Below, in pieces: positions 38,372 to 54,535 of a DNA stretch of 64,000 bases (positions are counted from its first letter, which is position 1; each line of letters begins with the position of its first letter). Below the pieces are notes generated by a model. That model was not told where the DNA came from. It made no database searches and saw only the letters and a list, made by a program, of their open reading frames with translations. Both the position numbers and the translations under genes were made by a program. Source of the DNA: Strigops habroptila (lineage: Eukaryota; Chordata; Aves; Psittaciformes; Psittacidae); contig NC_044298.2 in NCBI RefSeq assembly GCF_004027225.2, positions 1,055,922 to 1,119,921 on the forward strand, read 5' to 3'.

Positions 38372-39491
38372 TCACTTGCCCGGTAGCCCCTGGGGGTAGC
38401 CCCCGGCCGCCTCCAGCATGGCTCTCCTCCGCACTGTCTCCTTGGCCACGCTGTGGTTCAGCCTCCGCAGCCGTTCCTGTGCCAGGGGGAGCAGCAGCCA
38501 TCAGGATGGGGGGGATTGGAACCCCCAAACCGCTCTGCCCCCAATCCCCCCCCCTCCCAGTGGGGGGGCATGTGCTGACCTGTGCATTCTGCAGGATGTT
38601 GTTGACCAGCACCACCCTGCGCCGGGCGTTCAGCAGCTTCTTCACGTAGGGGTCGAGGTCCAGGGCCACCTTCTGGTCCTCATTGATGCGGCAGAGCTCT
38701 GGGGAGAAGGGGGCAGAGGGTGGGGGGGAGCCTCGGGGCCTGCAGCCCCCCAGGGTTCCAGAAGTGCCCCCCCACATGTCCCGGAGGTGCCCCCCATGTC
38801 TCAGAGGTGATGCCCCCGTATCTTGGAGATGTTCCCCCCATGTCTCGGAGGTGTCCCCCACATCCCAGAGGTGCTCCCCATGTCCCGGTGGTGCCCCCCA
38901 CGTCCCGGAGGTGCCCCCCCATGTCCCGGACGTGATGCCCCCATGTCCCGGAGGTGTCCCCCACATCCGAGAGGTGCCCCCCCATGTCCCGGAGGTGCCC
39001 CCCACGTCCCGGAGGTGCCCCCCATGTCTCGGAGGTGCCCCCCACGTCCCGGAGGTGCCCCCGCCTCACCGGTGGCCAGGCTGTCGATGTGCTCCCGCAG
39101 CTCCACCTGGCTCTCCCTGCGGAGGGGACAGCTCCGAGCTCCAGGGCCGGGGCACCCCAAACCCCTCCCTCCTCCCTCCAGCAAGGGCCCAGCGCCCCGC
39201 TAACACCCTCCCGGCCACCTCCAGCCTCCCCGGCCCAGCTCCCTGCTCCCTCCGCTCCCAACAGCCCGGCCACGACCCCCCCCATCTCCCCACCGAGGAG
39301 GCCCCAGGCTCCCGTCAAGGGGCTCCCAAACCCGTTTCCACCCGGCCCTGCCCCGCGGGCCCCGGCCTCCCCCCGCCGGACCTGACGGCGTGGACGTGCC
39401 CGTCGAGCTGCCGCACCGCCGGGCGCAGGAACTGCAGCAGCCCCTCCGCGAACAGCTCCCGCGCCGCGGGGCCGCCGCTGCCCGCCGCCAT
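38372..39491 (-). CDS. SNAPIN: SNAP-associated protein (BLOC-1/BORC subunit), complete
   Basis: Snapin is a small coiled-coil subunit of the BLOC-1 and BORC complexes. It binds SNAP25/SNARE proteins and works in lysosome positioning and synaptic vesicle priming. Exons: 39382-39491, 39070-39116, 38580-38698, 38372-38476; 381 nt, 126 codons plus stop (human 136; the difference is a shorter N-terminal leader). It starts MAAGSGGPAARELFAEGLL and contains RPAVRQLDGHVHAVRESQVE and INEDQKVALDLDPYVKKLLN, ending GLPGK like mammalian snapin. The start ATGGCGGC overlaps a YY1-type AAGATGGCGGC element. Intron 2 is almost wholly a 19-20 bp minisatellite. The gene is tail-to-tail with ILF2 and has an eight-copy ZNF143-type array just upstream. 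Confidence 0.96.
38765..39062 (-). repeat. Minisatellite in SNAPIN intron 2 (about 19-20 bp unit)
   Basis: About 15 diverged copies of ggtgccccccatgtcccgga fill the intron between exons 2 and 3. The array begins about 7 nt inside the exon 2 donor, with the same GGGGGCACCTCCGGGAC phrase on the transcribed strand. Confidence 0.85.
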
Positions 39492-39547
39492 CTTGCCCGG
39501 CGGAAGGAGTCCTCCCCCGGGGCGGGAGGGAAAAGCCGCTGCCGAGG

Positions 39548-40012
39548 GGGATGATGGGAAATGTAGTCCGCAAGGAGGGTCGGAGAAGCCGCTTAAGGTC
39601 GGCGTCGCGGGGGATGTTGGGTAATGTAGTCCCGAAGGGGGGTCCGGAAGCGGCTTCTGCTTCGAGCCGCGGGGGATGATGGGTAATGTAGTCCACAAAG
39701 GGTTGGTCAGGGAAGTGGGTTTTGGTCCCCGTCGCAGGGGATGCTGGGTAATGTAGTCCTGAGGGGGGTCGGGGAAGCGGGTTCTGGTTCAAGCAGCGGG
39801 GGATGATGGGAAATGTAGTCCTGAAGGGGGTCAGCGAGGGCTGCTTCTGCTCCACGACGCGGGGGATGACGGGAGATGTAGTCAGCGAGGAGGGTCGGGG
39901 AAGCGGCTTATGGTCCCCGTCGCGGGGGATGATGGGTAATGTAGTCCGGAGGGGTGTCGGGGAAGTGGGTTCTGCTTCGAACCGCGGGGGATGCTGGGAG
40001 ATGTAGTCCGCA
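39548..40012 (-). promoter_or_regulatory. Eight tandem ZNF143/THAP11-type (SBS) sites upstream of SNAPIN
   Basis: An imperfect tandem repeat of about 63 bp carries, once per unit, a gatgatgggtaatgtagtcc-like phrase starting at 39550, 39613, 39675, 39740, 39802, 39865, 39928 and 39990. On the minus strand this reads GGACTACATTTCCCATCATC followed by CCCCGCG. That matches the established ZNF143/Staf and THAP11 element ACTACAnTTCCCAgnATGC with its GCG tail. All eight copies keep ACTACAT or a one-base variant; the copy at 39865 is the weakest (gtagtcag). The array starts about 60 bp upstream of the SNAPIN start codon and points in its direction. It overlaps the 3' flank of the SMAD4-like gene. Confidence 0.85.
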
Positions 40013-40137
40013 AGGGGACGCCGGACGGAGCCCGTCGGGGAACCGCGAACGCGTTCGCGCAATAACGGCTCCGGCGCTGACGGCGTTTGGGGTTGGTTTT
40101 TTTTTTTATCGTTTTCGGCGTTTTTTGCGCACAAAGC

Positions 40138-43100
40138 TCAGCGCGGGGGCCCGGCGGCGGGGGGGGGCGGCATGGCGTGCAGCACCTCGTCCAGCAGCTG
40201 CAGGGCGCGGTGGAGCAGCACCTCGACCCAGCACGGCGTGTGCGTGATGCTCCGGCGCGGGTAGTCGGGCCCCCAGCCCTTGACGAAGCTCAGGCGCAGG
40301 ATGCACAAGCGCCGCAGGTCGTCCACGCCGAGCGCCGCCGCCGCCGCCAGCCCTGCGCGGGGCGGGGGGGGACCGCGGTGTCACACCCGCAATGGGGGGG
40401 GGGGCCCGGGTCTCAGCATCAGCTCCGGTGATGGGGATATGGGGGCGGGTTGTAACTCACCCATGGCCGGTGCGATGCCGCCCACAGAACCGGGCCCCGG
40501 GATGGCACCGACCACGGCGGCGGCTTGAGCGGCGGCGGCGGCGCGGGCGGTGGCGGCGTGCTGCTGCAGCTGGCGGTGGCACTGCCGCAGGTCGAACACC
40601 TGCGGGACCCCCTTCGCATGGGCATGGGGCTCCTCCATCCCTGGGACCTCCTTTAACACGGACATGGGGCTCCCCCCATTGCCCAGGACCCCCTTCACAT
40701 GGGCATGGGGCTCCCTCCAACCCTGGGACCCCCCTTCACATGGGCATGGGGCTCCTCCATCCCTGGGACCCCTTTAACACGGGCATGGGGCTCCTCCATC
40801 CCTCGGACTCCCTTTATCATGGACATGGGGCTCCCTCCATCCCTGGGACCCCCTTTAACATAGACATGGGGCTCCTCCATCCCTCGGACTCCCTTTATCA
40901 TGGACATGGGGCTCCCTCCATCCCTGCGACCCCCCTTAACACGGACATGGGGATCGTCCATCCCTGTGACCCCTTTTAACATGGACGTGGAGCTCCCCCC
41001 ATTGCCTAGGACCCCCTTTTACACGGACATGGGGCTCCCCCCGTTGCCCAGGACCCCCTTTAACGCGGGCAGAGGGGTCCCGGCCCCCCCACCTTGATGT
41101 AGGCGCCGGGGTAGATCTTGTGCACGGCGTCGCCGGGGGCCCTCCCCGCCTCCCGGTCCAGGTAGTAGCTCTGCACGAAGACCGCGTGGTGGCCGCGGCA
41201 CCGCAGCCACACGTCCCCCTCGCCGCGGCGCTCCAGCCGCACGCCCTTTCCGATGTGCAGCCTGGGCACGGCACCGTCACACCCCCAGAGCCCCCCATCT
41301 CCCCATGGAAACGGCCCTGTGCCCCCTATATCCCCCAGTTACCCCTACTTGCCCCCAGCAGCCCTGTATATCCCCCAGATGCCCCCTACCCCCCCATTTA
41401 TCCCCTATACCCCCCTCACTTGCCCCCTATATCCCTCAATTGCCTCATATATCCCCCACTTATCCCTTAAATCCCCCCACCAGCCCCCTATACCCCCTTC
41501 CCCCCCCATATCCCCCCATACCCCCCATATCCCTCAATTGACTCAAATATCCCCCAGTTGCCTCTTAAAGCCCCCCCCAGCCCCCTACATCCTCCCATTT
41601 GCCCCCTCTACCCCTCATCAGCCCCCTCTACCCCCCATTTGCCCCCCACATCCCCCCACCAGTCCCCTCTACCCCCATCTGCCTCCTACATCCCCCCATC
41701 AGCCCCCTATATCCACCAGCTGCCCCTACATCAGCCCCATATACCCCCCCTTTGCCCCCTCTATCCCCCCATCAGCCCCCTATACCCCTCATTTGCCCCC
41801 TACATCCTGCATCAGCCCCCTCTACCCCCATTTGCCCCTTACTTGCCCCCATCGGCCCCCTATATTCCTCAATTGCCTCATATATGCCCTACTTGCCCCT
41901 TAAATCTCCCACCAGCCCTTTATGTCCCCCATCTACCCCCTACTTGCCCTCAGCAGCCCCCTATACCCCTCATCTGCCCCTTACTTGCCCCCAGCAGCCC
42001 CGTATATCACCCAGATGCCTCCTACTTGCCCCCCCCACCCCCTCTACCCCCATTTGCCCCCTACATCTACCATTTCGCCCCTATACCCCCCTTCTCCCCC
42101 CCCCATCAGCCCCGTGCTGCCCCACGCCTCCCCCCCCACTGCCCCATTCACTCCATCCCTCCCTTTCCCCCCATTCCCCCCCGCATCCCCCTCTCCCCCC
42201 ATCCCCATAACCCCCCATCCCCCCCGCATCCCCCTCTCCCCCTCTCCCCCCATCCCCCCCCGCATCCCCCCCACATCCCCTTCTCCCCCCATCCCCATCC
42301 CCTCCCGCATCCCCCCCCGCATCGCCCTCTCCCCCCATCCCCATCCCCCCCCGCATCGCCCTCTCCCCCCATCCCCATCCCCCCGCATCCCCCTCTCCCC
42401 CATCCCATCCCCCCATCCCCCCCCGCATCCGCTTCTCCCCCCATCCCCATCCCCCCCGCATCCCCCTCTCCCCATCCCCATCCCCATCCCCCCCGCAACC
42501 CCTTCTCCCCCCATCCCCATCCCTCCCCATCCACCCCCGCATCCCCCTCTCCCCCCATCCCCCCCTGCCCCCCGTGCCCCCCCGCGCACCGTGCCCGCTC
42601 GCTGGCCGCGGTGCGCCGCACGTTGGAGAGCCGCCCCAGGCAGAAGCGCTGCCCGCCCGCCGGGTCCATGTAGCCGTCGACGACCACGGCGGGGCAGCGC
42701 GACGGCACCTTGAAGGGCTCCCCCACCGGCACGTCCAGCTCGAAGTACGCGATGGAGCACCAGAACTCGGGCCCTGGGGGGGGGGACACACGCACAGATG
42801 GGGGGGGCAGAGCACCCGCTGCTCACATAATGGGTGCTAATGGCGGGGGGGGGGGCACTTACCTGGATGGGTGGACACTGGGTGCTGGTGTGAGCCCGAG
42901 TTATGGTGGGAGGGCCCTGGAGGGGGGGCAGAGAAGGGGTTGGGTTATAGATGACCCCCCCCCCCATCCCAGCCTCTGTAGGGGGGTAGAGATGGGGTTG
43001 GGTTATAGATGAACCCCCCCCCATCGCAGTTCCCATGGGGGGGTGTAAAGAACGGGTTGGGTTATAGATGACCCCCCCATCGCAGTCCCCATGGAGGTGG

Positions 43101-45793
43101 AGAGGTGGGGTTGGGTTATAGATGACCCCCCCCAATCCCAGTACCCCCAAACCTACAGTAGTGATGCTGGGGGGGCTGCGGGTGGCTGTGGGGCTGTGCC
43201 CCCCCCCAGGCTCACTGCATACACAGGGGTCCAGCTTGATGGTGAACCTGGGGCAGAAGAGAGGGTGGCCATGGGGGGGATTGTTGTGTGTGCCCCCCAC
43301 CACATGGGGTGACCCCAATACTCACTGTGGTTGGGCGGTTTGGGGTACCCCTTCTGCGGGGGGGCTGTGGGGCTGGAGAGCTGCAGCAGCCCCTCGCTAT
43401 GGGGCAGCAAGAGCAGGGAGGCACCAGGGGGGGCCACTGCTGGGGGGGGGAAATTATATGATATGAGATATGATATATGATATGATATGGGGGGGAGAAA
43501 TGATATAGGGGGGCTTAGGAGGATACCCCAAACCCTTCTGAGGGGATGGGGATCAATGGGGTCTTACCTGGGGGTGTCCTGCGGCCGTGGGGGGGCTGCT
43601 GGGGGGGCTCAGTGTGGGGCACCTGCTTGACCCCCTGCTTGCGGCCGGGGGGCAGCTCCATCCGCACACAGTCATGGACAAGCTCCTCCTTCACCAGTGG
43701 GGGGGGGCACTGGGGACACACACACACACTATGGAGGGGGGGCTTTGGGGGTGCTCCCGGCTGGCTCCATGTTGGGGTCTCACCGCTGGATGTTCAGACT
43801 AGGGAGGGAGGTGTTATGGGTGGTGTTGAGGTGCTATGGGTGGCGTTGGGGGTTTATGGGTGGCGTTATGGGGTGTTATGGATGGTGTTGGGGGGGTTAT
43901 GGGTGCTGTTGGGGTGTTATGGGCAGTGTTGGGGTGTGATGGGTGCTGTTGGGGTGTTATGGGTGGCGTTATGGGGGGTTATGGGTGCTGTTGGGGTGTT
44001 ATGGGCAGTGTTGGGGTGTGATGGGTGCTGTTGGGGTGTGTTATGGCTGGCGTTGGGGGCTTATAGGTGGCGTTAATGGGGTGTTAAGGGTATTATGGAG
44101 GGGGTTATGGGTGGTGTTGGGGAGGTGGTATGGGTGCTGTTGGTAGTGTTACGGGTGCTGTTGGGGTGTGACGGGTGCTGTTGGGGGTGTGATGGGTGGT
44201 CATGGGCAGTGTTGGGGTGTGATGGGTGCTGTTGGGGGTGTGACAGGTGCTGTTGGGGGTGTGATGGGTGGTCATGGGCAGTGTTGGGGTGTGATGGGTG
44301 CTGTTGGGGGTGTGACGGGTGCTGTTGGGGGGGTTATGGGTGGTTATGGGTGTGTTGGGGTGTGATGGGTGCTGTTGGGGGGGTTATGGGTGGTTATGGG
44401 CGGTGTTGGGGTGTGATGGGTGCTGTTGGGGGGGTTATGGGTGGTGTTGGGGTGTGATGGGTGCTGCTGGGGGGGTTATGGGCGGTGTTGGGGTGTGATG
44501 GGCGGTGTTGGGGGAGTTATGGGTGGTTATGGGCAGTGTTGGGGTGTGATGGGTGCTGCTGGGGGGGTTATGGGTGGTTATGGGCAGTGCTGGGGTGTGA
44601 TGGGTGCTGCTGGGGGGGGTTATGGGCGGTGTTGGGGGGGGTTACGGGTGTCATGGGGGGCGCTCACCGCTGGGGGGGGCCACGACGCGCTCGTAGTGGT
44701 AGGGGTTGACGCAGACGCCGTCGCGCTTGAGGGCAAAGGCGAAGCGGCAGAACGTGGCGTGCTGGAGCTCGTTCTTGTGCAGGTCGGGCCAGCGCCAGAG
44801 CCGGGCGTAGATGACGTGCGGGAGCCCCTTCCTGCCCGCCACCTGGGGGGGCACAGTGAGGAGCCCCCCCCATTGCCAGGGCTGCTGCAGCCAGCCTGGA
44901 CCCCGGCCCCCCCCCCCCCCCAGCATCCCCCTGGTTCCGGCGCTGGCGCCAGGACCTCCCCCCCCCGGCTCCAGACATAACAACCCCCCCCGGCTGCAGA
45001 CAGTGAGTCACTGGGAAGGGGGGGCACAGGCGCCGGGGGGCTGTGGGCAGGGGGTCCCTGTGCACCCCCCATCCATGGGGCAGCCCTGGCTGTGGGCTCG
45101 GGGGGGGGTGTGTCCTCTACACCGGGCCCAATGCTGGGGTACTCCCAGCTTGGGAATTGCTTAGGGACGCTTGGGGTACCCCGATATCCAGGTTCCCCAA
45201 GCTTGGGGAGGGCTGTGGGGTGTCATGGGGTATTTTGGTCCCCTAACCCAGCTCAGGCAGGGCTTGCGGGGCATGGGGCACTCCAAAACCCAGCTTAGGG
45301 AGGGCGGGGGGAGGTCTCTGGGGACATGGGGGTGCCCCAAAACCTGGGTCCCCCCAGCTTTGGAAAGGCTTAAAGGTATCTTGGCATACTCCAACACCCA
45401 GGTCTTTCAAGCCTGGGGAGGGCTTGTATGGGGTATCATGGGGTGCTTGGGTGTCCCCCCCCAGCTAAAGGAGGGCTTGGAGGATCACGGTGCACTCCCA
45501 ACGCCAGGTCTCCCAGCTCAGTGGGTGCTGTGGGGTGCACGGGGGGGCTCTCAGGGTGTCAGCGGGGGGGTTACCTGCAGCCGCCCGTCCAGGGTGCGCT
45601 GGATGGTGACGCAGTTGCTGGGGTGGGCGCCGCTGGTGGTGACGGCGGCGAGGAGCGAGTGCAGCTCGTCCTTCCTCTCCTTGAGCTTCCTGACCAGGCT
45701 CTCGATGGCGCGCCGGGCGAAGGCCTCGCTCTCCCCGCCCTGCCGGTGGCACATCAGGCTCTGCACGATGCTGCTGTGCGCGCAGAGGGACAT
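40138..45793 (-). CDS. SMAD4-like co-Smad paralogue (Smad4.2/Smad4-beta type)
   Basis: Co-Smads join receptor-activated Smads to carry TGF-beta/BMP signals to DNA. Exons: 45575-45793, 44668-44842 (MH1); 43568-43709, 43326-43439, 43216-43247, 42863-42916 (linker); 42590-42773, 41093-41261, 40461-40599, 40138-40352 (MH2). About 480 codons against 552 in human SMAD4. MH1 has [43 protein letters not shown] and [14 protein letters not shown], with zinc ligands C61, C105, C117 and H122. MH2 has [57 protein letters not shown], the co-Smad Q/A helix, [13 protein letters not shown] and [10 protein letters not shown]. Exon lengths 175, 184, 169 and 139 equal those I recall for human SMAD4. The linker is short; VKEELVHD and PHSEGLLQ are conserved. 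Phase fails at two linker junctions (44668/43709 and 43216/42916), from either base-call errors in C runs or missed exons. No nuclear-export exon (SGLTLQ type) was found. Confidence 0.88.
40605..41085 (-). repeat. 40 bp minisatellite in SMAD4-like last intron but one
   Basis: About 12 copies of a ccctttaacacggacatggg/gctccctccatccctgggac unit lie between exons 41093-41261 and 40461-40599. On the transcribed strand each unit carries GGGGGTCCCAGGG, which resembles the true acceptor GGGGGTCCCGCAG at 40600; the array runs right up to it. Confidence 0.85.
41300..42580. repeat. C-rich low-complexity tract in SMAD4-like intron
   Basis: About 1.3 kb is almost pure pyrimidine-rich plus strand: ccccctatatcccccag-type units up to about 42100, then cccatccccatccccccccgcatccccctctcc units. 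The pre-mRNA (minus) is therefore G-rich, with dense runs able to form quadruplexes. No exon is seen inside. Confidence 0.85.
42925..43135. repeat. About 60 bp tandem repeat in SMAD4-like linker intron
   Basis: Four diverged copies of gggttgggttatagatgacc + C run + atcgcagtccccatgg lie between exons 43216-43247 and 42863-42916. Confidence 0.75.
43800..44660. repeat. About 20 bp minisatellite in SMAD4-like intron 2
   Basis: Roughly 40 copies of a gttatgggtgctgttggggt / gtgatgggtgctgttggggg family fill the intron between the MH1 exons and the linker, ending about 8 bp from the donor at 44667. The core gatgggtgct also occurs in NPR1 intron arrays. Confidence 0.85.
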
Positions 45794-48244: not shown

Positions 48245-51200
48245 TCAGTCGTTGGTCTCGGGGTCTGTCTGAGCCATGTAAGCATCCAGCTCGGCGTCGA
48301 GGTGTCCTTTCGTTTTAGACATGTAGGCATCCAACTGGTTGTCCAGCTGCTCCTTGGTCAGCGCCGGCCGTGCCGATCCTCTGCCTCGGCCCCGGCCTCT
48401 GCCGCGGCCTCCGAAGCCGCCCCGGCCCCGGCCAGCCATGCCACGACCTTGTGGTGAGACAAGACAATGGTTACACCGAGCACCGGCTCCGGGCTTGCCA
48501 CGGCAGAGGCTCTGGAAATCCAAATGCCTGATCCCAGCTCCAACACCCACCTCCCCTGCTGGTGCTCCACTGCCACCTCTGCGCTTCTCTCCTGCCCCAC
48601 AGGCCTCTGGCTCAGGCGGAAGCTTTTGGTGGCCAAGCAGCAACAGCATCACCCATGATAAGCCTGTTTTGCCTTGAAATCCAGAGGTTTTCAGCCTACA
48701 GATGTAGGATACCCAGGAGGCCAAACGTGTGAGGCTAAAGCTGCAAGCCAAAGCTGTGCAGGGATCAGCTCCTAGTAACTGTCTGCTCCTGCAGACACGG
48801 AGCCAATCCCAAAGGACCATGAGAGCACATCTGGCTGCTGTTCTACCCAAACATCTGTCTGAAACATGAACCACCGAGCACCAACAGCTGCCTCCTTATC
48901 TCCTCCTGCTTCACGCTTCTCTGTGTGTTGAAGATGAGAGTTCATTTACCCAAATTGATTCAGTTCCAGCTGCTGAATCCGAGTTTATTTTGCAGGGTTC
49001 AGACTTTCTCCTCTGCTCATTCTCCCCTGACGGATGATTTAAGGGTCTCCTGGTCTACACAGGCTCTGTATCATGTCCTTCAGCATGAGGAGACAGCGTA
49101 GTCTTCCTCACTAAGAGTACTTGCTGCCTCCCGCCTGTTCCAACCCATGGGCACAACCTCAGCAGCCACCCCCAGAGCCCCTCTTGGAACACTGGCCCAG
49201 TCAGGGAGCTCCACTGGGTGTTTTGGGAATTGAAGCCTTCATTTAGCACTATGCTGTGCATGGATTCAACAGAGAGGTTTGGGGCTGTACCACTCGTGTG
49301 TTCTAGCCTTAAACAGGAGAAAGAATCACAGCTCCCTGCGTGTTATTACCCCTGTGAGCACTAACCTCTGCCTCCGAGTCCTCCCCGGCCCATCGCGCCT
49401 CGGCCCAGACCTCCTCTTCCAGGGCCACCACGGCCTCGAAGGCCCCCTCTCCTCAGGCCCATCCTGGGGGATATCCCTCGTCCTCCACGAAGCAGGCTCT
49501 GACCTTTGAGAGAGGGAATTCCAAGTGGAACACAATCAGTTTTCAGACAGAATCATGCTGTCAAGAACATCCCTAATGACAGCCCAGCAGCTCCGGTGCC
49601 GCATGGATTGGGATCTGACCTCGGAGCGGGATTCCTCCTCGCAGCAGAGCTCTGGCTCCCCGGCCTCCACGCATGGCTCCCCGTGGCAAACCCCTCTGCC
49701 CCATGGCCAATCCTCTTCCCCCCATGGCTCCACGAGCGAGGGGCCCCGCTGGTCGGCCCAACCGAGCCTGGATGTTGCTTTTCCCGAGGCGTTGCTTCAA
49801 GCTCTTCTGGAATAAAAGATGTGTAAGAAAGGGGGGGGGGGAAAAGTCATGCAGCAATCTAGGACTTGCCCCACAAACAGCAGAGTCATCACCCATCAGT
49901 ACAACGGGGGTGTTGCTCTGGGGTATTTTACTGCAAGGAAACCAGAGGGTTACCAGCTCTCTGCAATATATAATCAAGTGTCAAAGGCAGACAATCAAAT
50001 TTGGTCTGGGAGGGAGAAGTGGTGAAGGGCAGAGAGCAAAGACCTGTGTCTGTCCAGAGACAACGTTTGCAAGGAAGCATTTTACTCTCTGGTTTTAGCA
50101 GTGCTGCTCAGTCCCAAGCCAGGCAGCTCCTTCACCCACAGGCAGCCCCCTGCTCCCTTCTGCTGCAAGGAGACAGTCCAAGCAGATCCCTGCTGCACAG
50201 ACCCAGCCTCCCTCCATGGAGTGAGGGACATCTGTGCAGCCACACACCGTGGGTATCATTGCCAGTGGCCTATGCCCCCATCCTGGCTTCCATCCAAAGG
50301 CAACAGCTAGGAAAAGCATCCACTTTTCCATGTATACCACAAGAAGAAAACTATACCGAAGAGATTTACCCTCACCAGAACAGCAGCAGAACAGTCATCA
50401 CTGCGTATATGGCTTTTGAAGTGGGTTCTTCACCAGAATCCATTGCACGGAGCTCCTGCTCCCAAATGCTCACACAGAAGGGCTGCAGACACGGCTCAAC
50501 TCCTCACCAAGCTGGGCTTTACATCCCACTTTAGATAGTCATTCATTTTCCCAGCAGCCTAAACCAGGAGCCTCTCTCCTGTGCCCAGCCTCACCAGCAG
50601 AAAGGAAAGAGAAAGCATATGGGTATGTTCCACATCCAACTACTCCTCGATGTCACTTACCATCAGAGCTTAAAGTTAAGCTGCTGGACTTTGGGCTGAA
50701 ACAGCCCCAAGAGGGTTGGCCCTTCTGCTCTGCCCCACAGCACCTTGGTCTGCTCCAGCTACTAAGTAAAGGCACGTCCAGCAGCAGTCAGTATAAATGG
50801 GTTTGCATTAAAAACACAACACAGGAGGTTTAGTTAAACACTTCTGCACTCAGCTGCAAGCCACAAACCCAGGAATCTCACACAAGCAGTGCTCCGCGGA
50901 AGTCCTTGGACCCTTAGAATGGTCCCGTCCAAGAGGACCCACATCCCAAAGGATCAGAAAAGCTCCTGGTGATACCCTGCCCAGCACTTGTGAAAATCCA
51001 ATCGCCACATCAACTTCCAGAGCCCAACTTCAAAGAGCAAGACAACAGAATCCAGGTTCCCAAATCCCCCCATGGCCCTCCCTTTAATTCCAGAAACCCA
51101 CGGAAGTACATCTCTGCTGAACATAGGAATCAAACGGGTTTAGGACCTAAGCCAAAGGATCAATTCTTCCCTGATCCACTTCAGCACAAACTTCACCCTT

Positions 51201-54200
51201 TCAATCCAGTTTCACTTATCACTTGTGAGATTCTGAACTTTCCAAACACGCTAGTTTTTCCTGCAGCCCTTTCCAGAGCTGCTGTTTCCAGGCTCTGCGA
51301 GGCTGCCTGGCACCACAGCCTGTCCTGACAACAGGAGCCTCAAGAGATCTTAAGTAGCAGCTGCATTCCTCTTTATCAGAGCGAGCCCTGAATGTGGCAG
51401 GTTGAAGAATTCCAGCTATGTGGGGAGGCAGCTCAGCTGAGACATTTCCAAGGCTTCTTCCTCATGTGGGAGAGAACACACAGAATTCTGTGGAACTGAT
51501 TCTGCAGTCCAGCCATGCAGTGCTGCTGTTTGAGCTCGCTGCAGAGCTGAGGCACTACCCCACAGGCCTCAATGTCACAGAATTACACTGGTTTGGGTTG
51601 AAGGGAGCTTAAAGCTCCTCCAGCTCCCCACGGGCAGGGACATCCTCCACGAGAGCAGGTTGCTCCAAGCCCCTGTGTCCAACCTGGCCTTGAACACTGC
51701 CAGGGATGGGGCAGCCACAGCTTCTCTGGGCACCCTGTGCCAGCACCTCAGCACCCTCACAGGGAAGAGCTTCTGCCTCAGAGCTCATCTCAATCTCCCC
51801 TCTGGCAGGTTAAAGCCATTCCCCTTGGCCTGTCCCTACAGGCCCTTGTCCAAAGCCCCTCTCCAGGTTTCCTGGAGCCCCTTCAGGCACTGGAGCTGCT
51901 CTAAGGTGTCCCCTTCAGGAGCCTTCTCTTCTCCAGGCTGCCCCAGCCCAGCTCTCTCAGCCTGGCTCCAGAGCAGAGCTGCTCCAGCCCTCGCAGCAGC
52001 TCCGGGGCCTCCTCTGCCGTGTTCCAACAGCCCCACATCCTTCAGTGTTGTGCCCTACACATCCTCTTTACGCTTCTCTTCCCAGCCACCCCCTTTGCAC
52101 AAGCTTTAACACTTGCCAAACCCCTACAAGGAGCAAGCCCTGCACAAACAGCTCTTCTGGCTGTTATGGTGGTTTCTGCTGTAGGGAGATCTTGCCCCCC
52201 TGCCCCTTCTCTACATCCAGAGTTAGGGAAAAGGGCACTGACTGCACAGAGAAATGAGGATATAGCAAGCGTGCTCAGGTCTTCTGCAGTACTGCCAGAG
52301 GAACATACCATAATGTGTAGTACTCATCACTGAAAAGTGAAATGCTCCTCTTTATCTAAGGAGAATGCACCCCTGTGCCTTAAATCCAGGCCTGCATTCT
52401 AGCACTCATCCCCAAACCAGTTTGTTCCTCTGCTCCTCGCAGCCAGCGCCTATCAAGGGAGTGCACCAGGAGAGGATGGAGCTGGGGATGGGAGCAACCA
52501 GCCTCAACTGGCCAGTAAGAACTGGAAAGGACCCGCAGCAGTTGGAGCTGCAGCTGGATTGTGAGGTGAAGTACTCGCAGATCCAGAAACCCACAATGAG
52601 AACACTGCTCTGAAAAAACAGAGAGGAGACATGAACATCCAGCCCAAAACACCCCCAACACCAAGCAGTGACTTACAAAGCATTACTTATCGCAAGTAAA
52701 AAGTGGAATTTCCTGCAAGTCCCTTCCAGGTCTCCCGGTTGGAACTTCCAGGAGCATTTTCCCCAATCCACCACTATCCTGAAAGCCACGTGCTGGTGCC
52801 AGGCACGAAGAGGCTGCCCCAGGACCCGTCGCTGTCTCTCACCTGTTTGAGCTTCAAAGCAGCCTGCACAGAAGGTCTGTTCTCCATCTGCTGGGCCAGT
52901 CTTCTGTTTCTGGCACTGGCTAGCTGCTGCTGCTGCTGCATGGTAGCCCGAATATTCACTGGCATCGGCTGTTTGTTCTTCAGCATGTTAGTAAAGCTTC
53001 AAGGTCGAATAAAATGGGTGTTTAAAGAAAGCTTTTATTACATACATTTATTGGCATTTCATGGTTCTCAAGATCGGATCTCCAGATCCCATGAACCTTA
53101 TGTAAAGAGTGGTACTTAGGTCACGGCATATGGGATTAGGTATTCCTTGTTTTCCACAAGTGTGCAAGAACTGGAAACTCAGAAATGATGTTGCATATTA
53201 ATTGAGAAGTGAGAAAGCTTTAGGTTACTGAGGTTGGAAATGGCAGAAGGAATGAAAACAAGCAATAAGCAGAGATGGTCGTGACAGATGGGAGAGGACA
53301 TCACAGGAACAGAAAAGCAAAGTGAAATCTGACTGCAAAAGCCAAATTCGCCCTCAAAGAGCTGAGAAAAGGGGTTAAAAACTCAGTGCCAAAAGGCAGC
53401 TTAACAAAAGACATCACCCTGAGGACAGTCTGGTGGCCTCTGGTGCCCCATAGGACAGATGCCACCACCCAAGTGTGTTTGCTTAGAGAAACAGTTCACT
53501 TGGCAATTTCTTTGGTGCACACAGGATCTCCTCTTTATGATGACACAGGAGCAGCAAGATGGCAAGCTTCCTTAGGAGCAGCCCATCTGCATTCTGCTGG
53601 GTCCTGGGGGCTACAAGGCTGTGAAAGAAAACACTGCCAGATGAGGAATATGGACTGACCAAACCAAAACGGGCCAGCGAGGCCTCCCCTGCCCTGCCCC
53701 TCATCTTCCCTAGGGTAACTCTGAGCACCAGTTTGGGCTCCGCATCCAGCTCCCTGCTGCTGGAGCAGGGGCAGCACAAACGTGGCTCTGATTATCCCTG
53801 GCTGCATGATACCAACACAGATAATCCAAGAGTGGTTAGTAAGAAAGTGAAACAGAACTGCATTGCTGTTAGTCACCACCGTAGAACTGCACAAGCTCAA
53901 TGGCATGGAAAAAACCAGAAGAATACTCAACAGAAGAAATAAAGCAATCAAAGAAAAAGAGAGAGAAAGAGATGGAGATGAAGCAAAGCATTTGCCTCTT
54001 ACAAGGCCCAGAACGTTGTTAAAGGGCCTTTGGGCTTGTTCAGTGGCCTGCTGCATGCCTCTTACAGGCGAGACCACATGCATGTGTGTCTGCCTTGGAC
54101 AAAGCAGCAAGCCTCCTGCAGCTTGGGTAACATGCTACCGTGCTGCAGCGCCGACTAGATAAATGTAAAAAACATGTGGAAGAAAAAAAGGGAGGGTGTG

Positions 54201-54535
54201 AGGTTTCTCTCTTGGGTTATAACACATCCCACCAGATTTACGTGTTGCATGGTTTAACGTTAACTGCTATGGATAAAAGTGCTCCAAGACACTTGCCCTT
54301 TTAACCTTGGGTACCACATCTGTTGCAGTTTAAGACAGAGGTGCATAGCCATCTGCTTGCTTTAGTGAGGTTAAAAGAGGGCAGAAACCACGTTGGTTTT
54401 TTGGACACTGGGCAGTGATAACTAAGGAAAACGATTTCTTATGAGCTGAAGCTGCTGTTGGCTTCCTCACCGCTCGTTCAGAGACATCTTGGTGGTGCTC
54501 TTTAGCACAACCTTCGGTGCTGACTGTGCAGCCAT
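48245..54535 (-). CDS. CHTOP: Chromatin target of PRMT1 (FOP/SRAG), complete
   Basis: CHTOP is a nuclear RNA-binding partner of the TREX mRNA-export complex and a substrate and targeting factor for PRMT1 and PRMT5. Coding exons: 54471-54535, 52843-52996, 49620-49803, 49366-49503, 48245-48447; 744 nt, 247 codons plus stop. Exon 2 starts in its 5' UTR at 54552, and a noncoding exon 1 ends at 55641. The N-terminus [20 protein letters not shown] leads to [15 protein letters not shown], then a glutamine run, [11 protein letters not shown], a central Gly/Arg-rich methylation region ([30 protein letters not shown]) and the C-terminal [17 protein letters not shown] and [10 protein letters not shown]. 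The acceptor of the third coding exon is a CAGAAG tandem (starts 49806 or 49803), adding or dropping one Lys; the longer form has the human length, 248. Confidence 0.97.
49830..51580. other. CHTOP intron 3 distal part, nothing recognised
   Basis: Unique sequence, less GC-rich than the flanking genes. No exon with matching CHTOP phase and no repeat family was seen. Confidence 0.5.
51590..52285 (-). mobile_element. CR1 LINE with extra shared flank, copy 1
   Basis: CR1 3' sequence from ggtttgggttgaagggagct to about 52015, followed by about 270 bp (ttccaacagccccacatcct ... gaggatatagcaagcgtgct) that also occurs, nearly identical, after the CR1 at 56 kb. It lies in CHTOP intron 3. Confidence 0.8.
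53000..54465. other. CHTOP intron 2, nothing recognised
   Basis: AT-richer unique intron sequence with an A/G-rich stretch at 53920-53980 (agagagaaagagatggagat). No feature is supported. Confidence 0.5.

Follow-up and report, generated by a model that had tools for sequence, protein, structure and literature searches.

A co-Smad gene between SNAPIN and CHTOP

The window, which is the whole stretch of 64,000 nucleotides that was analysed, corresponds to C23:1055922-1119921 of the parrot's own genome (1.149 Gb in 89 contigs), which was searched as well. In the window, the gene order INTS3-NPR1-ILF2-SNAPIN-gene-CHTOP-S100A1 was observed. The central gene is a co-Smad gene of ten coding exons (e1, e2 and e4-e11) with GT/AG splice signals, located on the minus strand at 45793..40138. 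The features are listed in the direction of transcription. Human exon lengths were used for comparison, and human probes for the two neighbours.

48248..54535, minus strand: CHTOP, upstream neighbour (span of matched pieces, human probe)
45575..45793, minus strand: exon e1, 219 bp, start codon and first part of MH1; identical to P0001 and P0002
44668..44842, minus strand: exon e2, 175 bp, remainder of MH1, including zinc ligands and the DNA hairpin; same length as human exon 3
43784..43798, minus strand: decayed micro-exon, 15 bp, taken as the equivalent of the SMAD4 NES exon
43568..43709, minus strand: exon e4, 142 bp, linker with VKEE motif
43699..43707, minus strand: C9 run in the first bases of e4, where the frame departs from the P0001 reading
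43326..43439, minus strand: exon e5, 114 bp, linker
43157..43247, minus strand: exon e6, 91 bp, linker, with its end defined by P0001
43199..43207, minus strand: G9 run as read on the minus strand, within e6; the other frame break relative to P0001
42863..42916, minus strand: exon e7, 54 bp, linker
42590..42773, minus strand: exon e8, 184 bp, opening part of MH2; same length as human exon 9
41093..41261, minus strand: exon e9, 169 bp, MH2; same length as human exon 10
40461..40599, minus strand: exon e10, 139 bp, MH2 with Q/A-rich stretch; same length as human exon 11
40138..40352, minus strand: exon e11, 215 bp including the stop, end of MH2
38381..39476, minus strand: SNAPIN, downstream neighbour (span of matched pieces, human probe)

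The encoded protein contains an MH1 and an MH2 domain (Pfam, 7.9e-37 and 7.8e-65), and its closest solved structures are SMAD4 chains (best 2.4e-134), which rules out chance open frames. In MH1, the zinc ligands C71, C115, C127 and H132 as well as the DNA-hairpin residues R81, Q83 and K88 are all kept. The MH2 domain aligns to SMAD4 through the Q/A-rich insert and keeps the trimer residues D351, R361 and D537. The protein ends in AGPPR and carries no SSXS. An earlier note on this DNA had described ten exons between CHTOP and SNAPIN encoding an MH1 domain with all four zinc ligands and a full co-Smad MH2, and both the position and the domain content were confirmed, the former by the match of both neighbours and the latter by Pfam, the structure matches and the residue check. 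Its statement that exon lengths match human SMAD4 is correct for the four exons of 175, 184, 169 and 139 bp, which are as long as human coding exons 3, 9, 10 and 11; the first coding exon differs in length, as do those of the linker. GC3 is 0.99 in e1 and e2 and 0.92 from e4 on, with e6 left out. G/C-rich minisatellites are dense in the introns and around SNAPIN (38770-39062, 39536-40017, 40604-41038, 41320-42581 and 43810-44637). A structure model of P0001 (31 rows) had a mean pLDDT of 36.8 and was unusable.

Phylogenetic position and Smad genes elsewhere in the genome

A tree was calculated from 56 proteins and 528 columns with an insect outgroup. It separates a SMAD4B-type clade of 34 rows (support 100/99) from a canonical SMAD4 clade of 21 rows (97/95), and the same split was obtained with the MH1 and MH2 columns alone (99/96 and 95/91). 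The window protein groups with P0001 and P0002 at 100/100, within the birds of the SMAD4B-type clade. Both clades contain cartilaginous fishes, bony fishes, amphibians, reptiles and birds. Since cartilaginous fishes occur in both, the split between SMAD4 and SMAD4B predates the jawed-vertebrate radiation, and SMAD4B most likely arose in the 2R genome duplications. The tree, the synteny and the separate canonical SMAD4 of this genome together support the proposal of the earlier note that the window gene is a Smad4.2-type ohnologue (SMAD4B, Smad4-beta). The note had spoken of retention in this bird lineage; the gene is not restricted to it, as sharks, bony fishes, amphibians, reptiles and other birds are in the clade. 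Its claim that the gene was lost in mammals agrees with our search, where no mammalian SMAD4B was observed among the best 120 of 2361 matches. The three named mammals among these (P0079, P0086 and P0095) reach 94-96% identity with duck SMAD4 and score as canonical. Mammals thus appear to be without SMAD4B.

We considered whether the gene could be a young duplicate or a retrocopy of bird SMAD4, as parrot MH1 and MH2 are identical to a parrot's canonical SMAD4 at 283/345 positions, nearly as close as the 294/345 shared with penguin SMAD4B. This near-equal likeness results from the large amount of change in the parrot copy. The gene is multi-exonic, lies in the SNAPIN-CHTOP locus and falls outside canonical SMAD4 (100/99). 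On the rows used, both trees refute a recent copy, and we regard this origin as next to impossible.

Besides Aix P0120, the best 120 matches include 29 named bird rows, 12 of which are in the tree. Judged by the best BLAST piece, 26 of these 29 lie nearer to SMAD4B references. P0002 ties at 587 to 587 (best single piece), and its clade therefore rests on the tree. The remaining two, P0030 and P0052, are nearer to canonical references, although P0030 still carries GLSIQ. DLSGL was found in none of the 29 bird rows among the matches listed, and, judged by names, no passerine is among them. The NCBI name in many birds is SMAD4-like. P0056 (Gallus gallus), named SMAD4 by NCBI, falls in the SMAD4B clade. 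Rows in both clades were obtained for the lizard Pogona, and a galliform canonical SMAD4 is present in the 56-protein tree (P0260, grouse).

In the own genome, canonical SMAD4 was found exon by exon on C26 (101.9 Mb), with exons in order, and as a second set on C25 (37.4 Mb); the separate SMAD4 that the earlier reading implied is thus present. Both copies have the LSGLTLQ micro-exon, and no stop was observed in their aligned exon pieces (L009-L014). Among 46 own-genome matches, the window, C26 and C25 are the only co-Smad places. SMAD2/3-type exons show the same pattern on C26 and C25, so that these contigs look like Z and W. On C9, an MH2-profile match at G000:C9:1715219-1715368 lies on the strand opposite to nearby SMAD2/3-type exons and contains one stop; it is possibly a partial copy. 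A SMAD6-like I-Smad is located on C23 about 0.3 Mb from the window (L003 = G000:C23:780128-780616, C23:781469-781786). Its MH2 is 64% identical to the I-Smad copy on C9, which we take to be SMAD6, and 46-49% to the copy on C26, presumably SMAD7. The co-Smad/I-Smad pair on C23 parallels C26 and supports block duplication, and the C23 I-Smad is a candidate bird SMAD6B. According to PMC5979292, coelacanth, Xenopus, python and gecko have a SMAD6B, and SNAPIN is one of the conserved neighbours of SMAD4 regions. In flycatcher, SMAD4 transcripts were assigned to a W scaffold, according to an excerpt of PMC4468903.

The SMAD4B gene and its reading as an ohnologue are already published. In 2017, the chicken gene was reported, with a locus unchanged in all birds and mammals excepted (PMC5327424). 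A 2018 paper, in the part available, proposed the 2R origin and the names SMAD4A and SMAD4B, and stated that human and lizard retain A and chicken B (PMC5979292). With Pogona in both clades and the grouse SMAD4, this account of retention is incomplete. The grouse protein agrees with the salvaged, fast-evolving SMAD4 of Galliformes described in the accessible portion of PMC5327406. A 2009 survey, in the section available, gave one co-Smad for most species with Xenopus laevis as the exception (PMC2657120). Unlike this statement, both of our trees place a second co-Smad in several jawed-vertebrate classes. The chicken SMAD4-like gene on chromosome 25 (PMC5327424, PMC5979292) has clade and domains in common with the parrot copy. 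In MH1 and MH2, the parrot is identical to chicken SMAD4B at 294/345 positions, compared to 341/349 between penguin and chicken; the parrot also differs in that its micro-exon is unused.

Frame breaks and the export-signal region

The coding sequence of the window is interrupted twice. Exons e1 and e2 finish in phase 1, and e4-e11 without e6 stay open throughout when read in phase 0; both alternative frames of e4 contain stops. P0001, a 494-aa protein from a 1682-base contig of a near-identical source that may be closely related, is open across both breaks. It joins e2 directly to e4, without using the micro-exon, and has a longer e6. A 32-base version of e6 broke the frame and was rejected, as P0001 shows an exon ending at 43157. 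The intron-containing gene of 5.6 kb would not fit on the P0001 contig, and P0001 is therefore most probably an mRNA, less likely a retrocopy in its source. No retrocopy was found among the 46 matches in the own genome. P0002, the UniProt kakapo model, has 42 residues encoded by an intronic tandem repeat (window 44371-44246), an artefact of automatic annotation bypassing the broken linker. In MH1 and MH2, the window is identical to P0001 at 340/340 columns and to P0002 at 345/345. The agreement with P0002, in these columns and in the repeat-derived residues, marks the parrot almost certainly as the kakapo (Strigops habroptila).

If SMAD4B were becoming a pseudogene in the parrot, the frame breaks would be real, constraint relaxed and the sequence changes decay. 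The two breaks and the decayed micro-exon are consistent with this, and the changes at 30 of 295 near-invariant sites described below could mean relaxed constraint; the two canonical SMAD4 copies could cover a loss. On the other hand, both breaks coincide with G/C runs of 9, and the gene span holds 30 G/C runs of at least 8 within 5.7 kb. Apart from the breaks, all ten exons have splice signals and no internal stop, and the identity of the window with P0001 and P0002 in both domains also speaks against decay. For VGP CLR assemblies, the available part of PMC8081667 names short indels leading to frameshifts as the commonest errors before polishing. If the sequence is the VGP kakapo assembly, it would be prone to such errors; polishing, which reached about one error in 10 kb in the same source, weakens this point. 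Decay of the gene is, in our view, quite improbable. As the breaks lie at G/C homopolymers and P0001 reads through both, we infer that assembly errors are the likelier cause.

DLSGL follows MH1 in 19 of the 21 canonical rows and in the outgroup (of the other two canonical rows, one is truncated at this point and one departs from the motif) and in 0/34 SMAD4B-type rows. At this place, 28 SMAD4B-type rows carry a short GLSIQ-like piece, one has an odd insert and five have nothing: the window, P0001, P0002 (where the model is wrong), one hummingbird isoform and the gharial. We take DLSGLTLQ to be the exact export-signal residues of SMAD4, a signal reportedly described by Watanabe and by Pierreux in 2000. 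Canonical SMAD4 shares MH1, MH2, the Q/A-rich stretch, four exon lengths and the zinc and trimer residues with the parrot gene, which differs in its locus and in the lack of DLSGLTLQ. Xenopus Smad4-beta is known for its nuclear location. According to a review, the linker of SMAD4 contains an export signal (PMC1459162). For Xenopus Smad4.2/Smad4-beta (accessible parts of PMC1459162 and PMC2657120), P0138, presumably the published protein, falls in the clade of the parrot gene and has GLSI in place of DLSGLTL. It is identical to the parrot protein at 288/345 positions of MH1 and MH2; the GLSI piece is missing in the parrot. The 15-base remnant at 43784-43798, which we regard as the counterpart of exon 4 in human SMAD4 (the NES exon), encodes LNIQ in one frame, comparable to GLNIQ in lizards, and leads to a stop if spliced in. 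Its inclusion would end the protein after MH1, making it a candidate for a possible role as a poison exon.

By analogy to SMAD4, the MH2 domain would join receptor-phosphorylated R-Smads in trimers and the MH1 domain would bind Smad-box DNA. Because the export signal is absent, SMAD4B would be expected to reside mainly in the nucleus and could form a nuclear co-Smad pool alongside SMAD4. In zebrafish, smad4b is hardly expressed up to 4 dpf and does not compensate for smad4a, and injection of smad4b mRNA rescued a smad4a mutant, as reported in the available text of PMC8569018; this smad4b may belong to the SMAD4B clade.

Accelerated change in the parrot copy

To quantify change, we defined near-invariant sites as MH1 and MH2 columns at least 95% constant across all other rows; this cut removes parrot-changed sites from the counts of the other rows. 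At 295 such sites, 30 changes are common to all three parrot rows. The next most changed SMAD4B row, barbet, has 8/272, and no more than 2 changes were counted in 24 of the 31 SMAD4B rows from outside the parrots. With a 90% cut, 38/317 were counted for the parrot versus 18/314, and 1/314 for a parrot's canonical SMAD4. In the MH1 and MH2 tree, the parrot stem branch has 0.187 changes per column, with next to none between the parrot rows, which come from two or three sources only. The window and penguin are identical at 294/345 positions, compared to 339/349 between penguin and shark. K113, which we presume to be a SUMO site, is lost in parrot SMAD4B and in 2/31 other SMAD4B rows. When each ancestral residue is assigned its nearest codon, 23 of the 30 changes raise GC, one lowers it and six are neutral or ambiguous.

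One could suppose that the parrot gene gained a new role under selection. An adaptive burst is consistent with change confined to one stem branch and with the loss of K113 while trimer, zinc and DNA residues were kept. The direction of change, in contrast, with 23 GC-raising and one GC-lowering change and GC3 values as given above, is that of unselected GC-biased conversion, and adaptation therefore seems unlikely to us. The same 23-to-1 bias points to GC-biased gene conversion rather than to a new kind of co-Smad, and the fast change is best explained by such conversion on a GC-rich microchromosome. In line with this, the accessible text of PMC8449477 describes GC-rich, refractory bird genes as fast-evolving and proposes GC-biased conversion; SMAD4 is absent from its main text, and the parrot SMAD4B burst was not found in print among the matches listed in a targeted literature search. 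Our data make it highly probable that the window holds a parrot SMAD4B that split from SMAD4 before the sharks, would supply a nuclear co-Smad pool without an export signal, and owes its fast GC-raising change to GC-biased conversion. More tentatively, GC-biased conversion may have remade the parrot co-Smad, with a single branch exceeding the whole shark-penguin distance in change, loss of the export-exon remnant and the presumed SUMO lysine, and core contacts kept. A female would in that case have three co-Smad genes (SMAD4 on Z, SMAD4 on W and a nuclear SMAD4B).

The acceleration in the parrot merits further study. Parrot SMAD4B offers a test case of GC-biased conversion overriding strong constraint. 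The assignment of P0056 to SMAD4B is relevant to SMAD4 knockdown in chick. If C26 and C25 are Z and W, a female parrot may have three co-Smad genes. With two co-Smads in the birds, reptiles, frogs and fishes of the tree, results on SMAD4 dosage from mouse and human may not transfer to these animals.
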